A stretch of 64,000 bases of DNA. It comes from Synechococcus sp. WH 8109. GTDB taxonomy: Bacteria; Cyanobacteriota; Cyanobacteriia; PCC-6307; Cyanobiaceae. The translations under genes and the position numbers were made by a program. Positions 46,647 to 55,727 of this stretch are shown here, piece by piece. The notes under the pieces are model-generated. The model saw only the letters and a list, made by a program, of their open reading frames with translations. It was not told where the DNA came from and made no database searches. Position 1 is the stretch's first letter. Each line of letters starts with the position of its first letter. The stretch is taken from assembly GCF_000161795.2 (NCBI RefSeq), contig NZ_CP006882.1:1364001-1428000 (forward strand), given 5' to 3'.

Positions 46647-46880
46647 ATGCGTATTGCAGATTTTCTGTATCGCAAGCTCGGGCTAAATATCTTCAAGGCC
46701 GCACCACACCTGAGAACACAAACGCCTGAGATTCAAGCCCCCGCCGAAGTCGAGCTGGAACCTCTGGAGCCACCAACACCGATCAACACATCAACCACCG
46801 ATGTGATTCACATCGGGCCACGGGGGGGGCGCTACAAGGTGGATGCAAATGGTCGCAAGGTGTACCTCAAGGCCAGCTGA
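46647..46880 (+). CDS. Hypothetical protein with GPRGGRYK tail (77 aa)
   Basis: 77 residues: a short helix at the start (RIADFLYRKLGLNIF), a Pro/Glu-rich linker (about 27-50), and a C-terminal basic motif IGPRGGRYKVDANGRKVYL. That tail resembles small basic motifs found at the end of some viral and bacterial proteins. Function unknown. Upstream AT-rich DNA and isolated position mark it as accessory. Confidence 0.6.
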   Translation: MRIADFLYRKLGLNIFKAAPHLRTQTPEIQAPAEVELEPLEPPTPINTSTTDVIHIGPRGGRYKVDANGRKVYLKAS

Positions 46881-47006: not shown

Positions 47007-47171
47007 GTGAACGCTGGTCCTGCTTGTCCCATCCGGTTTGGCACCGCGAACAATCAAAAGGAAACGCTCGCCGATCAATGCCTGACAGCAGCGGAAATCG
47101 AATGGCGACGTTGGTCGGGATGGCAGATGGAACGAACAGCTGAAAAACAGTTCAGAAAAAGGTGGGCCTGA
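47007..47171 (+). CDS. Possible small protein (54 aa)
   Basis: A 54-codon frame from GTG 47007, containing ADQCLTAAEIEWRRWSGWQM and a basic C-terminus (FRKRWA). Amphipathic, protein-like composition but no homologue recognised and no clear ribosome-binding site. A weaker open frame overlaps on the minus strand. Confidence 0.3.
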   Translation: MNAGPACPIRFGTANNQKETLADQCLTAAEIEWRRWSGWQMERTAEKQFRKRWA

Positions 47172-47260
47172 GTCGTTGACCAAAAAGCGAAGACCCTGAA
47201 GAGCGATGAAGCCACTGCCAATGAGGTGAGACCGATTCTTTAGCTCACGCCATTGCAGCG

Positions 47261-47311
47261 ACCATCCGCGACCTCTGCCCTGCCCTTTTGAACAAGACGC
47301 ACTTCAACTAG
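47261..47311 (+). pseudogene. 5' remnant of a class V aminotransferase gene
   Basis: Translation gives IRDLCPALLNKTHFN and then TAG. The intact gene at 54546 reads LRSLCPALQNKTYFN in its codons 6-20, 11 of 15 residues identical, and the DNA is alike over about 34 bases. Nothing of the rest of the gene is present. It lies just before the left copy of the 63-base repeat, so it is a relic of duplication or rearrangement at the border of the accessory region. Confidence 0.65.
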
Positions 47312-47327
47312 GACGAAATTCTCTTTG

Positions 47328-47390
47328 GACAAGCTCAGATCGCTTGCAACGCAGTGGTTTTCAAAGAGGAGACCAGAAAGCATTAGTCAC
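47328..47390 (+). repeat. Border repeat, left copy (63 bp)
   Basis: Aligns without gaps to 54461-54523: 49 of 63 bases identical, the first 17 exactly (GACAAGCTCAGATCGCT). The right copy lies directly upstream of the intact class V aminotransferase gene; this one lies just downstream of that gene's fragment. Confidence 0.7.
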
Positions 47391-47542
47391 ACCTTTAGTC
47401 ACGTAATTTGGTCGACACAGTCAGCCGATAACGCCCTGAGGCAGGACACTAAAAGTAACAAGCGATACACAATTTGAAAAAGAATGTAACCGCGCGAACA
47501 CGTTCTTCAGGTTACAAAGAGGCCGCCATTGGCTCTTCTGTC

Positions 47543-47683
47543 ATGTTCGAAAAGCTTGTTGTTATTCAGCTTGGCGCTCTTCTCTTCGCCAACACTCATG
47601 ATCACGGCACGGAATGGGTGAAGTGGGGAGGGATCGTTGTTTCAATTGCGACGGTTGTTGTGGGTGTAGCCACTGGAGGCTGA
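47543..47683 (+). CDS. Small membrane protein (46 aa)
   Basis: 46 residues beginning MFEKLVVIQLGALLFANTHD, with a C-terminal hydrophobic helix IVVSIATVVVGVAT. ATG 47543 is preferred over a longer frame from 47474. An upstream GATAACGCC element at about 47430 is shared with the next small gene cluster. Unknown function. Confidence 0.5.
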   Translation: MFEKLVVIQLGALLFANTHDHGTEWVKWGGIVVSIATVVVGVATGG

Positions 47684-48049
47684 TCACCCATTGATCGACC
47701 AACCCTGAACCAGCTAGCTAGGCCGTCTCTTCCAACTGGGAGGGGCGGACCTCGTCTATGACCCTGGTGCAACACGCAGCGGGCACCGCAATCGAAGCTA
47801 GGTTGACTTGGAGGAATACTCGTACAGCGGACTGAGCCACTGCCCAGTCCGGCGGAATTAAAAAAAGGAGGGGCATGGGGGCTTCAAGGTCCATACCAAT
47901 ACGTAGACGGGCCTCAGAAAATTTCGCTGGAGTTTGGAAGGGGTGGCGAGACGATTGAGACATCGTCAACTAGGTAAACGCTGATCTCGTGACTCACAGC
48001 TGCCCGAGGATCTAAACCGCTGGCATCATTGCCACAACGGTTTAGACAC
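47684..48049. other. Intergenic stretch, no convincing gene
   Basis: An 83-codon minus-strand frame (47718-47969) exists but has poor protein character. The 3' part (48010-48049) contains the motif ACCGCTGGCATC directly before the following gene. Confidence 0.4.
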
Positions 48050-48319
48050 ATGTCACTCCGGAAGAACTTTGACTCGTTCACACCCCAGGACAAGCTACGA
48101 GATGCAGAGGAGGCGTACGTGCACGCCGTCTACAGGCTGAGGTCAGCAGAAGAGGCATATGAGCAGAACATGAGTGACCTGAAGCGGGAGATGGATTTCC
48201 TATTCCGGAAGGTTGGGCATTACCGGCGCTGCCTCTATGCAGGTAAAACGTTGGAAGAATATCTGGAATATTCCGCAGCTTCTGCTGATAGGCGTTGCCC
48301 TAAGCCTGCTTGGGTCTGA
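48050..48319 (+). CDS. Hypothetical coiled-coil protein (89 aa)
   Basis: 89 residues, ATG 48050 (MSLRKNFDSFTPQDKL). A long amphipathic helix from about 15 to 60 (RDAEEAYVHAVYRLRSAEEA) predicts a coiled coil. No family recognised. The start is chosen because the upstream motif ACCGCTGGCATC-ATTGCC, shared with another gene here, ends about 28 bases before it. Confidence 0.55.
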   Translation: MSLRKNFDSFTPQDKLRDAEEAYVHAVYRLRSAEEAYEQNMSDLKREMDFLFRKVGHYRRCLYAGKTLEEYLEYSAASADRRCPKPAWV

Positions 48320-48384
48320 TTTAAACGTAGGCCACTTATCAAATGACGTAACCCGGGCCTGATAACGCCGTTAACTTCAACTGC

Positions 48385-48525
48385 ATGAAACCTTCTATCT
48401 CCTACATCTTTGGCAGCGTGATCGTCGCGATCATGTTCTTAGCTGTTTTCGTTGGAGGCTCCAACGCTGTTGACTGCACTCACGGCCAGTCAGCTAAAGC
48501 ATTCGCTGCAAAGGGCCACCACTGA
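48385..48525 (+). CDS. Small secreted or membrane protein (46 aa)
   Basis: 46 residues starting MKPSISYIFGSVIVAIMFLA, a clear hydrophobic helix or signal peptide, followed by a short polar tail with one Cys and two terminal His. It is shorter than usual annotation cut-offs. The upstream GATAACGCC element at 48361 resembles one upstream of the 47543 gene. Confidence 0.5.
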   Translation: MKPSISYIFGSVIVAIMFLAVFVGGSNAVDCTHGQSAKAFAAKGHH

Positions 48526-48590
48526 GCCTGATCCTGCCGAGGGTCTGAATTGCTACCGCTGACATCCTTGGCTCCGGCCTTAATAGGCCA

Positions 48591-49100
48591 ATGAGAAGGC
48601 GACAATGGATTCCCTCGGCTGTGCTTGTGACTGTGAGTGGCCTAGGAGCTCGGGCTTACTACACCCATGCAGACGCGTTCCTCTCAACAAAGTTGGCTAG
48701 ATACGATGCTGCTTCTTCTGCTCTAACCGACAAGCAGGGCAAAGCCCACTTTGATTTCAAGAGTGCAGGGATCATCTCTGACTACAAGAGGTGCGACTGG
48801 ACTCGTGTCCAACTCAACAAGGCTGAACCGGGAACAGGAGACAAACATTTCAAATGCGAAGAGCTCAAGGCTTATGTGGAGCCTGCCGAAAGGTTGAAGG
48901 CCGCTTCGCGTCAGGACTTGGCTCAAAACTGTGAGCAGGCAATCAAAGCTGCTCTCTGGGATCCAGGGAGCTATGTCTTCGTAGCTCATCTCTATCTCGC
49001 CAACGAAAGCAACGGTGTCGATGTTCGTTTGACCTACTTGGAAAACGACGGTTATGGCGGTCGTGATCAGTGGCAAACAACCTGCAGCTACCACTTGTGA
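48591..49100 (+). CDS. Hypothetical exported protein (169 aa)
   Basis: 169 residues with a basic N-terminus and hydrophobic segment (WIPSAVLVTVSGLGARAYY), then a soluble domain with four cysteines, including CDWTRVQL, FKCEEL, NCEQAI and TTCSYHL, which may form disulphides in the periplasm. The C-terminal half (LAKCEQ-like helix, then LYLANESNGVDVRLTYLEND) is reminiscent of small periplasmic domains. No family recognised. An upstream ACCGCTGACATC motif lies at 48556. Confidence 0.55.
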   Translation: MRRRQWIPSAVLVTVSGLGARAYYTHADAFLSTKLARYDAASSALTDKQGKAHFDFKSAGIISDYKRCDWTRVQLNKAEPGTGDKHFKCEELKAYVEPAERLKAASRQDLAQNCEQAIKAALWDPGSYVFVAHLYLANESNGVDVRLTYLENDGYGGRDQWQTTCSYHL

Positions 49101-49226
49101 TCAAACGTCGATCACGTTGGGCCTTACACACTCCAACTAATCCGGCGACCCACTTCTTTCCCCGCTGCCTAGAACAGAAGCAAATGGGCTGGGCTCCAGG
49201 AGCGAGATGAAGGCACAATCAGAGGT

Positions 49227-49757
49227 ATGAAAAGACTTCTGCTGCTTCTGCCGCTGCTATTGCTGACTGCTTGTGAACCCTCGGAGCCGACAGCCTCTCA
49301 GGTTGCAGAGAAGCTTCGAGTACAAATCAACGAGCTTCTCGAAGAGGTAGACATGAGCCTCGAGAAAGTCGCAGACGTTGACCTCGATGGGCTGTGCGCC
49401 AACAGCGGAAGGATCACTGCAGGGATGGACTTACTTGTTCCTCGATACCGAGCATTTGCAGTACTGATGGAGGAACTAGGTGATATGCAGCAAGCATTAC
49501 TGGCAGGGGGAGCAGCCAATCAGTTTGCAGTGGATGTCCAAAAAATCAGACACGACTGCGCCACTAGGGACGCAGCCCCTCCATCTCAACCTGATTCCTC
49601 AGTAAATCAATCGACTGATAAACCGGTTTCAGACGTCGAGGATATGGCCTCGGTGACAAGTACTGAGGAGAACCCTTCAGGACAGTCTCCAGCTTCTGAA
49701 ACAACCTCGCCCCGTACATCACCTCAATCTCAAGAAGCAATGGCGGTACCGGAATAA
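49227..49757 (+). CDS. Putative lipoprotein (176 aa)
   Basis: 176 residues. The signal peptide MKRLLLLLPLLLLTACEPSE ends in a lipobox (LTAC), so lipid attachment at Cys16 is likely. A helical region (about 25-105) contains VAEKLRVQINELLEEVDMSL and two cysteines; the C-terminal third is low-complexity Ser/Thr/Pro/Glu. Function unknown. Confidence 0.65.
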   Translation: MKRLLLLLPLLLLTACEPSEPTASQVAEKLRVQINELLEEVDMSLEKVADVDLDGLCANSGRITAGMDLLVPRYRAFAVLMEELGDMQQALLAGGAANQFAVDVQKIRHDCATRDAAPPSQPDSSVNQSTDKPVSDVEDMASVTSTEENPSGQSPASETTSPRTSPQSQEAMAVPE

Positions 49758-49761
49758 GGGC

Positions 49762-49784
49762 AAGACATTCGACTGCAATGTCTT
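49762..49784 (+). terminator. Hairpin after the lipoprotein gene
   Basis: AAGACATT (49762-49769) and AATGTCTT (49777-49784) are perfect 8-bp complements, 5 bases after the stop; the T run that follows is weak. Confidence 0.45.
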
Positions 49785-50291
49785 CTCACTTCACCTTTTG
49801 CAGGTAGTCAGTTCAAGGTCAGGTGACGTTCGTGAACAGCTGCCGTTATCGCCACCACCTGGTTGGTTCTCGGAGCAGTCCTGGGAGAAGGAGCGGAGGC
49901 TGCAGAAGTATCCAAGACCGGTTGGTTGGACTGCGAGGGCTGGGGATATTGGCCGCAGGAATTGCAGTCAAGGCTGGACTGGCAGCGAAGAAAGCGCGTA
50001 AGAACCAAGTCAGCCGCCTGCTCAGCAAGCCATCAGGCAATGCGTGCATAGGAGGCGAAAGCGTCCTCACTCCTATGCAAAAGACCCTCAGAAATTTCAG
50101 CTGGTGGCGGAGCTGCTTACGTCTATGACTAAGAGAAATTAGCCAACTTTGCCAGAAGGGAATCCAGCAGGTGTAGGACCAGCGTGATTGTCGCGTTGGT
50201 GTGATTTACCACCCATGGCGCTTAGCTAGCAGTAAATAGGGGGCAATACAAGGACTTTCTGCAGCCATCGCGACCTGCTTGTCGGACCTTC
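49785..50291. other. Possible degenerate coding stretch
   Basis: Three overlapping frames between 49798 and 50128 each contain short protein-like parts, for example VLGAVLGEGAEAAEVSKTGW in one and RGLGILAAGIAVKAGLAAKK in another. They could be pieces of one small Ala/Gly-rich membrane protein broken by frameshifts, or chance. No single frame is convincing. Confidence 0.3.
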
Positions 50292-50396
50292 ATGGAAGAA
50301 ATCCTTGATCCCAAAGCTCTTCGAAAAATGGTGTGCAGCACCACTGGAGCGTCCCTATCAATAGTTCCTGCGATATCTCCTCTTACGGCTGAGTGA
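50292..50396 (+). CDS. Possible small protein (34 aa)
   Basis: A 34-codon frame starting MEEILDPKALRKMVCSTTGA, with a helical start and hydrophobic C-terminal half (SLSIVPAISPLTAE). Very short; only the reading frame supports it. Confidence 0.25.
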   Translation: MEEILDPKALRKMVCSTTGASLSIVPAISPLTAE

Positions 50397-50966
50397 GCCA
50401 TCGCGGCAGCACGGGAGAGCGACCTGTTAGCTGGCAGACAATCCAGTCCCAGCACACGACAAGCGTGATGGGGCTGGCTTTCTGCGCTTAAACCCATCTT
50501 CAGATAAAGGGAAAGATTCAGTGCATTGCACTTGATTGCACTTCTCCTCGTCAGCGTTAAGGAAGGGACCGCATCGCTCGGGGAGAACTAGTTCTCCTCG
50601 CGGTTCCGTTGTCCCGCATCAATGATTCGGTCACGTCTGTTGGAAGTCAGCAGTGCCGATAGAGGGGGCTGACGCGATGGTGCGATGTCTCCGCCCGCAT
50701 CTCTTCATTTTTCAGCGCGTATGCAAAAAGAACCATCCACCAAAGGCAGTGGTTCCAAAACACCTCTCGGGAGTGTGGCCTTGTTTCCACCTCGCGAGGA
50801 GTTTTTTCCTCGCCAACTACCCCTCTCTACTCATCGAGAACTGCGACAGTAGGGAGTAGACGACTCATAGCTTGTCCTCATCCAGCTTCAGGGACCCGAC
50901 TCAGCTCCTTGCAGCACGTCGGATTACATGACGAATGCCGAGACAACTGCCAGCAAGCGTCTTTCA
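50397..50966. other. Non-coding stretch with inverted repeats
   Basis: No credible gene. It contains a perfect palindrome (50582-50597), a tandem-like GTGCATTGCAC/GATTGCAC element near 50520, and a GCGAGGA/TCCTCGC hairpin with a T-rich loop near 50795. Confidence 0.4.
50582..50597. promoter_or_regulatory. Perfect 16-bp palindrome
   Basis: GGAGAACTAGTTCTCC is a perfect palindrome in an otherwise empty region. It could be a dimeric regulator's operator or a restriction/recombination site; no adjacent gene start explains it. Confidence 0.3.
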
Positions 50967-51185
50967 TCACTTGACTCTTCCTAAGCCCTGATTAGACCGA
51001 GAATATTGATGCGAGATCCGATGAAGATTCACTTCACTTTCAGCACGCTCAATCACTTGGCGAACTCGTCCTTGATGAATCACACAAGCCATTTCGTGCG
51101 CTGGCTTGTCCGTTGAATCGAGAAGGACTTGGAGCAGGGAGAGAGGCAAAGCATCCCAAGTAAGCAAGGCAGGCAGCAGAGACAA
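50967..51185 (-). CDS. Hypothetical protein (72 aa)
   Basis: 72 residues beginning MSLLPALLTWDALPLSLLQV, then an amphipathic helix with CVIHQGRVRQVIERAESEV and a basic C-terminus (RSNQGLGRVK). Composition is protein-like and the frame is better than those on the other strand. No family recognised. Confidence 0.4.
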   Translation of the reverse strand: MSLLPALLTWDALPLSLLQVLLDSTDKPAHEMACVIHQGRVRQVIERAESEVNLHRISHQYSRSNQGLGRVK

Positions 51186-51383
51186 CCCGCGCGGGACTAG
51201 CCAATCTTTCTATATGAGCTCTCGCCTCTTGCGCAGGGTCAAGCCTCAGCGGGCGGTAAACGCATCAAGTGAAAATACGTTGCGCAGGAGGCCTCTGATA
51301 AGTGAACATTCAAAAAGTGGCATGTGACACTACGACCCACTCACGCCACTTCGCCCTAAAAAGCGACTAGTGATGTCCTTGAC
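51186..51383. other. Intergenic, nothing recognised
   Basis: An 73-codon plus-strand frame overlaps the previous gene but has poor composition. No RNA or repeat was recognised. Confidence 0.3.
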
Positions 51384-51473
51384 ATGATTCCGGTCCCGAT
51401 CGTTCTACCTATCGCCGGCATAGTGATGATACTTGCCCACATCATCTACGGGAATACGCCACAAAATCTCTAA
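51384..51473 (+). CDS. Possible mini membrane protein (29 aa)
   Basis: A 29-codon frame encoding MIPVPIVLPIAGIVMILAHI, a single predicted transmembrane helix, and a short polar end. Resembles cyanobacterial one-helix mini-proteins in size only. No homologue claimed. Confidence 0.3.
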   Translation: MIPVPIVLPIAGIVMILAHIIYGNTPQNL

Positions 51474-51713
51474 TTAACAATTAGAGACATGAACATTGAA
51501 TCCATTCGACTTTTAGCAATGAAGAAACTTCGCCAAGACTAAAACGAGCACCAATCCCTTCCAAAGATCAATCTCACACCTTGACATTTGTCTATGCAGG
51601 GCAACCTCCATGGTTTCTTAGTGACTTTCTTGTGCCACTCGATCCTTAGCTAAGTGAATTGAGAGCCATATCAAGCATCACACAATTGAGCATCAGGTGA
51701 AAAGCCAACTCAA
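51474..51713. other. AT-rich intergenic stretch
   Basis: AT-rich sequence (for example TCTCTAATTAACAATTAGAG near 51468, an inverted repeat) without a convincing gene. The repeat TCTCTAATT/AATTAGAGA could terminate the mini-protein transcript. Confidence 0.3.
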
Positions 51714-52136
51714 TTAGCCACCATCGACTTGGCACCCGACCATTGCTCCTGCTGCAGCCCCAACAGGTACTCCCACCCATCGGCCTTTGTCCCTAGACAA
51801 AGCCGCACCTAGCCCAGCTCCAAGCAGTCCACCAATCACGCTCCCCTGGCTGCAGTCGTTGTTGTCGATATCGGCTTCTTGGGATTTTTGCGTAAATGCC
51901 TGAGTCGGACTGTCAGAACAGGCAATCTCAACCTTTTCGGTCCAATTCCGTACGTATCCAGGCCTATTTTTTGTGCCAGGAACGTATTCCTCCCTATATT
52001 CATCCCGAAAGCACTTCGTCGTACGTGAATAACCTGGCTGGGAAACGGTTTGGGCTTCTACACCTAGAAGGCCAACAAGCGGGGTAGCCGCTGTACCAAG
52101 GAGCAGGGACACGAGAATTGGTTGAAGTGAGGGCAT
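51714..52136 (-). CDS. Exported glycine-zipper protein (140 aa)
   Basis: 140 residues with a signal peptide (LVSLLLGTAATPLVGLLGVE, cleavage probably near AQT) and a C-terminal glycine-zipper region (VIGGLLGAGLGAAL and VGVPVGAAAGAMVGC) typical of outer-membrane-associated small proteins such as the 17-kDa surface antigen type. Cysteines occur at CFRDEY, ACSDSP, DCSQGS and the penultimate segment. Likely periplasmic or outer-membrane; no specific role. Confidence 0.65.
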   Translation of the reverse strand: MPSLQPILVSLLLGTAATPLVGLLGVEAQTVSQPGYSRTTKCFRDEYREEYVPGTKNRPGYVRNWTEKVEIACSDSPTQAFTQKSQEADIDNNDCSQGSVIGGLLGAGLGAALSRDKGRWVGVPVGAAAGAMVGCQVDGG

Positions 52137-52310
52137 CCGGATTGTTCCTCTATTTAAAATCTACTCCGCTTCAGCAGCCAAGCACAGCTGATTTGAAGGC
52201 ACCGCAATAAGAAGTAGTGGAAAGACGATGTGTTGACGCAAAAAGATATTAAGCGACTCTCTCCACAGCCTTCATTCCTCGACTGTTACACCCAAAAGAG
52301 GGATTGAACT

Positions 52311-52571
52311 TTATTTCGCCGCCCCAGTCAGGTGGTGTTGCGGAATTGGCGAACTGCAGCGCTGGTGTGCCAAAGACTTATAGGTGCTCTTCTCCACCCT
52401 GCTCAAAGACCTCCATTTTCGCTGATCTAACCATTCTCTTAGAGCCATATCGACGCAGTTTTTGTATCCCTCGTCTCGGTCAAACCTCTCCCAAGCAATA
52501 GCGGGGGTAGCCGAAACAAGCAGAACAGAAAGGAGTACCGGCAGTCGTTTCACGTAAAAACCTCTGTTCAC
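52311..52571 (-). CDS. Small exported hypothetical protein (86 aa)
   Basis: 86 residues with a clear signal peptide (VKRLPVLLSVLLVSATPAIA, cleavage after AIA), then WERFDRDEGYKNCVDMALRE and RSLSRVEKSTYKSLAHQRCS, with two cysteines that may pair. Periplasmic location is predicted; family not recognised. An ATG at 52550 is an alternative start. Confidence 0.5.
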   Translation of the reverse strand: MNRGFYVKRLPVLLSVLLVSATPAIAWERFDRDEGYKNCVDMALREWLDQRKWRSLSRVEKSTYKSLAHQRCSSPIPQHHLTGAAK

Positions 52572-52593
52572 AGCTCAATGTGGCTACTAATAG

Positions 52594-52776
52594 CCTAGGC
52601 CGAAAAAGGGCCGCAACTTTCACGAAGCGCCAGAAAAGCAGAGGGGAGAGGAGTGGCTGAAGTTCGAGTTGCGGAAGAAACTACGTCTCTTCAAGCCGGA
52701 CGCGGCAACGATGCACGTACAATGGATTAACAGCAGGGACTACAGCTACGTTCCGCCCCGCCAAATTCACGCCTAG
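52594..52776 (+). pseudogene. Open coding-like stretch lacking a good start
   Basis: From 52594 to a TAG at 52774-52776 one frame reads as a plausible basic protein (EEWLKFELRKKLRLFKPDAA, then QWINSRDYSYVPPRQIHA). No ATG or GTG precedes the conserved-looking part; TTG 52669 is the only upstream start candidate. It may be a 5'-truncated gene or a short gene with a non-standard start. Confidence 0.3.
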
Positions 52777-53138
52777 GTGATCCGCTGCAGCTCATAGAGC
52801 AGATCACCTGAGCCAAGACCGCCATTTTCCTGGCCATCTTGTCTTACTTGCATTACTAGCAACGGATCGTGAATCGCGTCTACATCAACTGGCCGAAGAC
52901 GTAGCCCTGAAACCGCAAGACAGAGAAGATCAATCACTGAATGGGGCAATGGGCGCTACTGCTCAAACACATTTATCCTGCTCACCAAGAGGAGGTCCAT
53001 CAGGAGTGAAAACAAAGTGTTTGCGTTGTAGTAAGAAAAATCCAACACTGTTTCATTAGCCAACAGAAGCGGCAGACTACGCTTATCAATTGATGTACAT
53101 AGAAAGCTCCAGGGGAACGAAGTGATCCGAAAACGCCG
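52777..53138. other. Intergenic, nothing recognised
   Basis: No credible gene. A hairpin GTGATCCGCTGC..GCAGATCAC (about 52778-52808) can form just after the preceding open stretch. The long minus-strand frame here is the antisense of the following gene. Confidence 0.35.
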
Positions 53139-53849
53139 ATGACGAGCAAGAGGGCCAAAAAATGGGACTGGCGAACGAACAGCAAAGAAATGCTGTCCTG
53201 GATTGCCGAGGCTGTCGTTGGCAGCCCATCCGCTTGGGATGAAACTGATGACGATGAGATCGATCCGATCGCAGTTATGGGGAGAACGGATACTCGCTCT
53301 GACTGGGTTGGTGCAACTACACAAAAAGGAAACCGTGGGACGAGATCGCCCCAGCGTCCCGATCTGGCACGGCGCTACTTCATCAGCCGTGAACAATCAC
53401 CAGTAGGCAACTTCTTCGAGAAAAAGAAACCAGAGTGGACGCGCGAACAGCAGATTGATGCATACCGCGACTACGTCTGGGATGAGTGGCTCCAGAAGGA
53501 GAACATGCCCGACGGTGCTGACCGTTGGTTGCGCGCGCGTGCTGCAGAGGTGATTGCAGGCAAAACCATCGACTTGGTTTCCGACTCCCGCGAGTTCAGC
53601 CGAAAAAATGGTGGGGGCTTCATCGGAGAAGGTGCTCCGTATGACTGCCACGGCCATGTCGTCCGAGCCTTAATCCTCATCAAGGCTGGGCGGATCATGA
53701 GAGAGGATTACTTCGCTATCCAGGCTGAATACCTCCTGAAGATGGAAGGCGATCCGATTGGATTAGCCTGGAAGCAAGAGGCCAAGGAGATCATCGCGGC
53801 ACGTGAAGCGGCCCAAGATGAATCCAAATCAGACCCATGGTCTGAGTAA
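53139..53849 (+). CDS. Hypothetical protein (236 aa)
   Basis: 236 soluble, charged residues starting MTSKRAKKWDWRTNSKEMLS. The middle holds ISREQSPVGNFFEKKKPEW and the C-terminal third has APYDCHGHVVRALILIKAGR; a C-H-G-(H/D)-V motif after a region about DLVSDSREFSRKNGG recalls DUF4326-like domains, seen in phage and plasmid proteins, though the match is weak. No membrane segment. It is the largest protein unique to this accessory region. Confidence 0.6.
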   Translation: MTSKRAKKWDWRTNSKEMLSWIAEAVVGSPSAWDETDDDEIDPIAVMGRTDTRSDWVGATTQKGNRGTRSPQRPDLARRYFISREQSPVGNFFEKKKPEWTREQQIDAYRDYVWDEWLQKENMPDGADRWLRARAAEVIAGKTIDLVSDSREFSRKNGGGFIGEGAPYDCHGHVVRALILIKAGRIMREDYFAIQAEYLLKMEGDPIGLAWKQEAKEIIAAREAAQDESKSDPWSE

Positions 53850-54000
53850 AGCTGCTATCCAATGATCCATGTCGGGGCATGTTCGATACGGTTAACCGGC
53901 TGGCATCCATATCTTTGTAACGCACCGAACGTTCTGCCTCGGTTTACTCAGTCAGGACTAATCCTGCCACCAAGTTGTTGGATCAGCTGGAACCCATGAA

Positions 54001-54174
54001 GTGAGAGCAACCAAACTCACCACCGCTCCACAAGGATTGGAGTACTACTGGGTCAGCGACCAGGAAGGTGCATGCCGCGTAGTCCGAGGGGTGTGGGCAG
54101 CCCAGCACCTCATAGAAGACATGCCTCACCTAACCGCCACCAAGACAAAACTCTTCCCAGCGGACTGGAGTTAG
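54001..54174 (+). CDS. Small hypothetical protein (57 aa)
   Basis: 57 residues from GTG 54001: VRATKLTTAPQGLEYYWVSD, then EGACRVVRGVWAAQHLIEDM and ending FPADWS. Strongly protein-like codon pattern, just below common size limits. No family recognised. The related motif ACCGGCTGGCATC lies at 53896. Confidence 0.5.
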   Translation: MRATKLTTAPQGLEYYWVSDQEGACRVVRGVWAAQHLIEDMPHLTATKTKLFPADWS

Positions 54175-54270
54175 CGCTCAAACAAAGCAACGTGGCATGA
54201 GCTGGTGGGTAAAGGCCGTGGCACCCAAAGCAGATGACCCCTAAAAGAGACTTAAAGCCTCAATGTCTTT

Positions 54271-54444
54271 ATGGCCAGGGTCAGGTGGGAAACAACTACT
54301 GACGAAGGTCAGGCCATGGTCAAGAAGGTCGGACTGATCGGCCTTGGTGGAGTCATCCTGCTGGCCTTCAGCAAGATGATTTTTCCCTTAGTCCTGCTTG
54401 GTGGCGGCAGCTATGTCGCATGGCGTTCACTGTTCAAGAAGTAG
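54271..54444 (+). CDS. Small membrane protein (57 aa)
   Basis: 57 residues from ATG 54271, or 42 from ATG 54316 (MVKKVGLIGLGGVILLAFSK). One or two hydrophobic segments (GLIGLGGVILLAFSKMIFPL, VLLGGGSYVAW) and a basic end (RSLFKK). Resembles short membrane proteins common in marine picocyanobacteria (memory only). Confidence 0.5.
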   Translation: MARVRWETTTDEGQAMVKKVGLIGLGGVILLAFSKMIFPLVLLGGGSYVAWRSLFKK

Positions 54445-54460
54445 GACACACTTCTATTTA

Positions 54461-54523
54461 GACAAGCTCAGATCGCTCGCAGGGCAATGACTTTCAGAGA
54501 AGAGCGCTAAGAGCTTTAGTCAC
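54461..54523 (+). repeat. Border repeat, right copy (63 bp)
   Basis: Gap-free match to 47328-47390 (49 of 63 bases). It lies 22 bases upstream of the intact class V aminotransferase ATG, so it may also contain that gene's promoter. Confidence 0.7.
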
Positions 54524-54545
54524 TCCCTATTCAGCCAAAAGCCAG

Positions 54546-55727
54546 ATGGATACAAACAAGTTGCGATCACTGTGTCCTGCTCTGCAGAACAAGACCTACT
54601 TCAACTACGGCGGCCAAGGGCCTTTGCCCAATTCTTCCCTTGAGGCGATCACCGCGAGCTGGAAATGCATTCAGGAGTTGGGACCCTTCACTGCAGATGT
54701 TTGGCCCTACATCGCCAAAGAGGTGAACAGCACCCGCCGCCTTCTGGCCCAGTGCTGCGGTGTTCCGCCCCATCGGCTTGCCCTCACCGAAAACGTAACC
54801 AGCGGCTGCGTGCTGCCGCTCTGGGGGTTGCCCCTTACCGAAGGGGACCGGCTGCTGATAAGCGACTGCGAACACCCCGGTGTTGTGAGTGCATGCGTGG
54901 AACTGGCGCGGCGCCAGAACCTCGCCATAGATGTGCTGCCGGTGAAACAGCTGCGGGGTGCTCAGACCCAATGCGATGCCGCGGTGGTCGAGGCGATTGA
55001 CCAAACCCTCACCCCCCGCACCCGTCTGGTGGTGCTGAGCCATGTGCTCTGGAACACAGGCCAGGTGATGCCGATTGCCGCCGTCGCCGATCAGCTCAGC
55101 CAGCACCCCCAACAGCCCTTTCTGTTGGTGGACGCAGCGCAAAGCTTCGGACAGATCTCCGTCGAAGACGCCGCTGCCGCGGCAGATATCTACGCTTTCA
55201 CCGGGCACAAGTGGGCCTGTGGACCGGAAGGTCTGGGGGGTGTGGCCCTGTCCGAGCGTGTGGTGGCCGAGGCGGCTCCAACCGTGATCGGTTGGCGCAG
55301 CCTGCGCGATGAAAGCAAGGCTGATCTGAGCAGCACTGATCTGTTTCACAACGACAGCCGCCGCTTTGAAGTGGCCACAAGCTGCGTGCCCCTGATGGCC
55401 GGCCTGCGCTGCTCACTGCAACTGCTGGAGAACGCGGGATCAGGCCAACAACGCTGGGACCGCATTCGAACCCTCAGCAGCAGCCTCTGGCAGGCACTTC
55501 AAGAGCTGGAGGCCGTCAAACCACTGCTGGAAGTGGCGCCTGCCAGCGGACTAGTGAGCTTTCAGATCATTGGAGATGCACCCCCTGCGGAGCATGTGAA
55601 TCAGCTGGGGGCCCAAGGACTATGGATTCGCGATCTGGCGGACCCCAGCTGCTTGAGAGCCTGCACGCACATCACCACCACCGACGAAGACATCAACGCT
55701 TTGGTGGCCGCGATCAGCGCCCTTTGA
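54546..55727 (+). CDS. Class V aminotransferase (cysteine/cystine lyase or desulfurase-like)
   Basis: A 393-residue fold-type I PLP enzyme. NYGGQGPLPNSSLEAI near the N-terminus, SDCEHPGVVSACVELAR, LVVLSHVLWNTGQVMPI, LVDAAQSFGQISV with the cofactor Asp, and the Schiff-base Lys in FTGHKWACGPEGLGG are visible. It fits the cyanobacterial C-DES cystine lyase/NifS-like branch more than SufS, but substrate is uncertain. A truncated copy of its first codons lies at 47261. Confidence 0.85.
   Translation: MDTNKLRSLCPALQNKTYFNYGGQGPLPNSSLEAITASWKCIQELGPFTADVWPYIAKEVNSTRRLLAQCCGVPPHRLALTENVTSGCVLPLWGLPLTEGDRLLISDCEHPGVVSACVELARRQNLAIDVLPVKQLRGAQTQCDAAVVEAIDQTLTPRTRLVVLSHVLWNTGQVMPIAAVADQLSQHPQQPFLLVDAAQSFGQISVEDAAAAADIYAFTGHKWACGPEGLGGVALSERVVAEAAPTVIGWRSLRDESKADLSSTDLFHNDSRRFEVATSCVPLMAGLRCSLQLLENAGSGQQRWDRIRTLSSSLWQALQELEAVKPLLEVAPASGLVSFQIIGDAPPAEHVNQLGAQGLWIRDLADPSCLRACTHITTTDEDINALVAAISAL

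Follow-up and report, generated by a model that had tools for sequence, protein, structure and literature searches.

Islands that replace the 5′ end of a protein-coding gene with their own sequence are an established phenomenon, known from the dusA islands of Proteobacteria (PMC4482086). Other islands with tyrosine recombinases are known from marine picocyanobacteria. These include the tycheposons of Prochlorococcus, which border tRNA genes (PMC10872708, PMC10187409), and a family of integrases located upstream of tRNA-Phe or tRNA-Cys in Prochlorococcus and Synechococcus (PMC10187409). Islands of marine Synechococcus have been mapped (PMC2441476; the word aminotransferase is absent from the portion of the text available). 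Recombinases and integrases have also been noted in prochlorosin clusters (PMC10783134). Here, we describe an island next to a class V aminotransferase gene (AT) of Synechococcus sp. WH 8109. The window, meaning the whole stretch of DNA analysed, is 64 kb of its 2.11-Mb single-contig genome (G000:C1:1364001-1428000; G and L numbers are our own handles for genomes and loci). We conclude that the region is very probably what remains, after decay, of a site-specific integrative element that replaced the start of AT.

Elements at AT resemble dusA islands in several ways. In both, a tyrosine recombinase lies where a protein-coding gene begins, island sequence replaces the 5′ end of that gene, and the integrase is the only universal part among variable cargo (PMC4482086). 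Unlike the dusA islands, the target is a PF00266 aminotransferase and the hosts are picocyanobacteria. Excision of dusA islands has been demonstrated by PCR (PMC4482086), whereas the AT elements are described here from sequence. Tycheposons are likewise islands of marine picocyanobacteria with a tyrosine recombinase and variable cargo (PMC10872708, PMC10187409), and the tRNA-Phe/tRNA-Cys family likewise consists of a picocyanobacterial tyrosine integrase that anchors variable islands (PMC10187409). In contrast to both, the elements described here abut a protein gene. No tRNA gene was present at AT elements in 14 loci of 13 genomes examined. Similarly, none is near the island of the window, whose four tRNA genes are 4.9-30.3 kb away. 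On these observations, we rejected a tRNA-targeted island.

From left to right, the locus comprises nfu (named as in an earlier note on this DNA), a gene that looks GAF-like by eye, a small conserved open reading frame (ORF; 46647-46880), the island and AT. The earlier note described a 63-base repeat at either end of the island and, at the left, a fragment of the start of AT ending in a stop codon. Both are real. The repeat copies (47328-47390 and 54461-54523) are identical at 49/63 positions; the next ungapped place in the window, on either strand, reaches 32/63. The ungapped extent is 88 nt at 76% identity (47306-47393 and 54439-54526). The fragment spans 43 nt at 77% identity (47273-47315 versus 54570-54612) and its frame stops at TAG (47309-47311). 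Start codons of relatives (GTG, ATG) are both mutated in the fragment of G000 but retained in that of G033, the closest relative by AT. The note had also seen a degraded repeat end, CTTTAGCTCAC (47238-47248), before the fragment. This is a chance resemblance. The stretch is ordinary AT leader and is shared by relatives with no element (e.g. TTTCGGCTCACGCCAGTGCCGTGACCATG in G031).

To compare alleles we took 20 stretches from relatives. AT was present in 19, and nfu too in 17 of those. The distance from nfu to AT ranged from 380 bp (G005) to 15.3 kb (G032). In G031 and G019 the small conserved ORF is only ~0.87 kb before AT. Hence, alleles without the island exist. The earlier note had proposed an insertion of roughly 7 kb at AT, and had named the lack of any empty allele as an objection to it. 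Element-free alleles are found, and the insertion is borne out by these together with the flank alignments that follow. The further idea of an integration hotspot is supported by the varied nfu-AT interval and by integrase matches abutting AT.

G033 carries the same island as G000. At its left junction the sequence is like an element-free AT leader and first codons up to TTCAAC; TAG and the element come next. We joined the flanks of each island at this core. With G033, the alignment spans the joint in nine of nine element-free loci (best G002, 273/312). With G000, it does so in seven of the nine. Left unjoined, the left end of G033 matches up to +2 in seven of nine element-free loci, and elsewhere in the flank in two. 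For the unjoined right end of G033, the match begins only from -29 to -44. Therefore, the start of AT has been displaced and replaced, not duplicated. This corrects the earlier view that the promoter and 5′ end were duplicated: the original start has moved leftward and the 5′ end at the right was brought in by the element. Among the loci then compared, AT bases 1-24 and a 34-base leader are common only to G000, G033, G006 and G032. The first ~24 bases and the leader of the present gene were contributed by the element. As for the 63-base repeat, it lies next to the recombination site and forms an arm of the element end; it does not represent a copied gene promoter. When 54200-54600 was scanned for promoters, none of sigma-70 type was found.

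The same break point recurs elsewhere. In all 13 attL sites, including that of the window, likeness to AT ends at most 4 bases past TTCAAC (the motif itself was used to locate the site). TAG immediately follows the core in nine of the 13, the window included. The stop is one codon later in G023, and none occurs within the codons shown in G012, G294 and G143. The core covers codons for PAL-x-[ND]K-x-YFN, retained in all 13 hosts shown. Matching attL and attR cores thus flank the insert and relatives have element-free alleles, as befits an integrative element.

In G033, G006 and G032, an intact tyrosine recombinase ORF of 397 amino acids (aa) begins 44 bp upstream of AT and is divergent from it. 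The integrase occupies the same place in all three, with different cargo in G006 and G032. We searched 300 genomes of the family, sampled from a larger group, with the G006 integrase (E ≤ 1e-20). This identified 25 matches in 23 genomes. The 14 top-scoring integrases (at least 222 bits, 38-100% identical) all abut AT and are divergent from it (G006, G032, G033, G294, G231, G180, G143, G167, G125, G185, G012, G028, G299 and G023). No AT was found beside the 11 weaker matches in the flanks searched, up to ~1.5 kb. In the integrase tree, a branch with 100/100 support separates the 14 from 10 others. A displaced AT 5′ fragment is present upstream of the integrase locus in 12 of the 14. By comparison, none was found in 12 loci lacking such an integrase (0/12; 14.9-16.8 kb searched in each, with a slightly different query stretch); the best control match (E 0.003) is outside the core and at chance level. 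An integrase from a further contig (L136, from a metagenome-assembled genome of Synechococcus sp. UW140) also adjoins AT. Near relatives of the integrase that bear names include Synechococcus and Cyanobium.

Residues R262, K290, R350, H373 and Y382 are invariant in 14/14 integrases; three positions ahead of R350, the residue is K or H. We take these five residues to be the catalytic set of a tyrosine recombinase, and the relatives' protein carries the full set expected of that superfamily. Profile searches recovered XerC-like, integrase and XerD structures (best E 1.8e-12) and phrog_1 (E 1.3e-23).

The sequences show directly the anatomy of the site, the element-free alleles, the association of the integrase with AT and its loss in the window. 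Our preferred interpretation of these data is as follows. An element site mimicking the first ~60 bases of AT would have recombined with the chromosomal copy. A tyrosine recombinase, lost here but intact in G033, would have catalysed this exchange. The original start of AT was thereby pushed to the far left end, with the element usually supplying an immediate stop codon. AT now has an element-supplied start codon and leader, facing the divergent integrase, from which the rebuilt gene would be expressed. Each integrase type would recognise its own ~10-bp pair of arm repeats, found to either side of the element site. Subsequent recombination at an arm repeat common to both partners would, in the window, have swapped the integrase for other DNA and a second left-type arm, freezing the island. 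Coordinates are collected in Table 1.

Table 1. Parts of the island and its target gene, in window coordinates
Feature	Position	Strand	Observation
Chromosomal flank, original AT leader left of the element	47060..47260	+	With the gene joined behind the core, 269/306 against element-free G002 (best) across the joint
attL, displaced original AT 5′ end	47261..47311	+	Core end TTCAAC at 47308, then TAG
P′ arm (left element end)	47309..47412	+	Conserved behind the displaced fragment in G033, G006, G032; direct repeats TTAGTCAC at 47383, 47395
Cargo, small ORFs mostly of no known family	47413..53878	.	Collinear with G033; Pfam
DNA occupying the position of the G033 integrase gene	53879..54438	.	Contains pieces recurring elsewhere in the genus
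Second P′-type arm	54439..54526	+	Fused to the P arm within 15-bp repeat AGCTTTAGTCAC[A/T]CC
Rest of the P arm plus attR core, with the element-supplied leader and first codons of AT	54512..54605	+	Core end TTCAAC at 54605; 93% against G033 from 54512 on
Target gene AT, start element-supplied, open frame of 393 aa	54546..55727	+	Class V aminotransferase, PF00266 (Pfam)

Paired repeats, CTTTAGTCAC, are present at both element ends. Exact copies of TTAGTCAC in the window are confined to the two at the left end and one at the right end (54516), against a chance expectation of about two on both strands. In G033, G006 and G032, repeat pairs with a 12-base period are found on both sides of the element. 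A pattern built from these arm pairs has five exact matches in three of 300 genomes; every one is at an end of these elements, and a reversed control pattern has none. Pairs of different sequence accompany other integrases, likewise on either side: CTTGACCCAC in G012 and G028, CTACCAAC in G167, TAGACCCACA in G185 and GGCCAC in G143. We scored P against P′ arms in the 12 integrase-bearing elements. The score exceeds all 300 controls, which are first-order resamplings of the P arm and not exact dinucleotide shuffles, in 8/12. Given the known attP anatomy of tyrosine recombinases, the arm repeats are putative arm sites of the integrase, which would bind there.

The copy in the window has decayed. 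Between 46500 and 53878, G000 and G033 align in four pieces (82-94% identical), with 49734-50245 and 50674-51712 unaligned. The intact integrase gene of G033 is at the place of G000 53879-54511, and agreement resumes from 54512. No integrase was detected in the G000 genome (0 matches at E ≤ 0.001), so the island has no functional integrase of its own. Pieces of 53879-54438 recur at 70-82% identity, with matches in 16 of 34 genus genomes including G000. At the right end of the island, a left-type arm runs into the right arm adjoining AT, the fusion lying inside the 15-base repeat. Taken together, these comparisons show that the window has lost the integrase; in its place are other DNA and a second arm of left type, joined at the arm repeat. 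We read the region as a frozen island. Separately, relatives of stretches 53914-54177 and 54257-54440 are present in many genus genomes at 70-82% identity, and more than once in some.

One sub-model of this interpretation concerns the right end of the island. Two elements may have stood in tandem at AT, the second being deleted via arm repeats to leave a left arm (54439-54511) fused to the right arm. This would fit the right copy, which is P′-type up to the repeat and P-type after it, and the 15-mer AGCTTTAGTCACACC, identical in both arms of G033. However, neither an accepted core nor a right arm of the first element precedes the second left arm, and the DNA there is recurrent in the genus. 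Furthermore, a core-less left arm is also found in a second island of G000, at 668 kb. Arms may hence travel as cargo. We regard tandem elements as possible, if rather less than probable. By-eye comparison of candidate cores, one preceding the right arm of the window's island and one preceding the 668-kb arm, led us to accept neither.

The island at 668 kb is 5.7 kb long (G000:C1 665550-671323; L039 5551-11324). It sits at the start of a gene that looks adenine phosphoribosyltransferase-like by eye, with 15-bp direct repeat TCATGGCTGCGATGA. G033 has the same site with no island. The island encodes a partial integrase of another family (L039:5760-6752, phrog_1) and contains two inverted pieces of the AT-element left end, spanning ~530 bp.

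Alternatively, the AT promoter and 5′ end might have been duplicated in tandem, with DNA then inserted between the copies by homologous recombination and no dedicated integrase. The two repeat copies, the fragment and the lack of such an integrase in G000 are all as this account would have them. Yet in G033, whose island is the same, an intact integrase lies between the cargo and AT, and on this ground we rejected plain promoter duplication. The break point and integrase also recur with other cargo in further genomes, and the present AT start differs from the displaced one, as replacement predicts. We consider duplication followed by insertion very unlikely.

The earlier note had allowed that the repeat might be a widespread promoter element. 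We used the left repeat as a 107-nt query (E ≤ 0.001). In G000 this matched the island pair and 668 kb (89%) and nowhere else; among 34 genus genomes it was found in four, three times in G000 and once each in G033, G006 and G032, and we therefore rejected a common promoter repeat. A small mobile or regulatory unit (a promoter or small RNA) that lies at island borders by chance is a scarcely credible account of the left-end repeat: one copy is indeed inside the 668-kb island, away from AT, but the other 30 genomes have none and the copies of the three relatives all adjoin a displaced AT fragment.

Several observations sit less well with site-specific integration at AT. The joined flanks of G000 fail to align across the joint with G013 and G008. 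No attL was found in G180 (14.7 kb searched) or G231 (just 1.3 kb searched). Taken by themselves, the fragments of G012 and G028 match weakly (E 0.017 and 0.004, respectively); 71 bases on from these fragments is an arm pair nearly or wholly identical to the AT-side pair. PF00589 scores of 26.8 and 24.6 are just below the 27.1-bit cut-off. The P/P′ likeness is equalled by 1-6 of 300 controls in G023, G294, G125 and G299, and no accepted core is ahead of the second arm in the window. Neither excision, a circle nor transfer was observed. Finally, G022, which is outside the set of genomes matching in the 300-genome sample, has an integrase of a different clade 3.4 kb upstream of AT (L168, G022:C7:58565-59695), and no displaced AT fragment was found in the 13.7 kb searched. 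The nfu-AT interval may hold more than one integration site.

We next consider cargo. Elements are 2.1-16.6 kb in size. Comparing ORFs of at least 80 aa across 12 complete integrase-bearing elements, the integrase is the sole ORF common to all. Smaller shared groups include overlapping-frame ORFs of the integrase gene, Nif11-type ORFs and primase/helicase ORFs. Nif11-type ORFs number seven in G125 (L117), four in G299 (L119) and one in G185 (L118). Three of these 12 were tested and all three match Nif11 families. The G125 element also encodes a fatty acid desaturase and a LanM synthetase (TIGR03897, 843 bits). Genes for a subtilase, a fasciclin protein and an ion channel are carried by that of G032. 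Transposase genes are additionally present in G185. The G012 element (L058 15642-17738) is 2.1 kb and has little besides the integrase; perhaps it is a minimal or stripped member. Cargo ORFs of the window include 48591-49100 (+), 49227-49757 (+; lipoprotein-like signal, by eye) and 53139-53849 (+). Only one of those scanned, 51714-52136 (-), reaches the Pfam cut-off (glycine zipper, PF05433). PHROGs and Pfam scans otherwise gave little family assignment for cargo ORFs of the window.

Primase/VapE modules are a feature of phage satellites. Likewise, elements of G143, G294 and G028 encode VapE-like and/or PriCT_2 proteins. The 16.6-kb G028 element combines a VapE-like protein with a phage-type RNA polymerase of 1257 aa (L043 4219-7992; PF00940, phrog_414). 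A difference from phage satellites is that no packaging or capsid gene was named among the selected cargo ORFs scanned. No virion structural gene, as would mark a prophage, was named among these selected ORFs either. Collections of phages and of plasmids yielded no match to the integrase, and an origin from either is unsupported. Against viral contigs, one scan found no relative and another found eight weak ones.

We compared trees of AT and of the integrase. In the AT tree, G028 groups with G000, G033 and their element-free relatives (100/100). In the integrase tree, G028 groups with G012 (100/99), and G033 with G006 and G032 (100/100). Several other AT-tree branches have low support and long ends, but the placements of G028 and G033 are strong. 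Because the host and integrase trees conflict, horizontal movement of the elements is supported, and they have probably spread between lineages.

The mechanism is already known from dusA islands. We did not find the AT target or this integrase clade reported in a literature search of titles and abstract starts: among the open-licence matches listed, none points by title or abstract start to an integrase next to AT, though the site may be entered uncommented in island databases. On balance, we lean towards an undescribed family of gene-start-replacing elements. In this family, one integrase clade would act on the same AT codons (PAL.[ND]K.YFN[YF]GGQGPLP) of marine and freshwater picocyanobacteria. 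The accessory genes that these elements move between distant lineages would include satellite-like replication modules and an entire lanthipeptide cluster of prochlorosin type, and arm-repeat loss of the integrase would leave frozen islands behind.

Islands shape the niches of these very abundant phototrophs, and integrative elements described there in the cited papers use tRNA genes. A fixed site in a protein gene, with attL, attR, element-free alleles and a displaced fragment, offers a way to detect both intact and frozen elements and to put their transfer to the test. Nif11-leader precursor genes in the elements of G125, G299 and G185 provide a concrete vehicle by which prochlorosin-type genes may spread.

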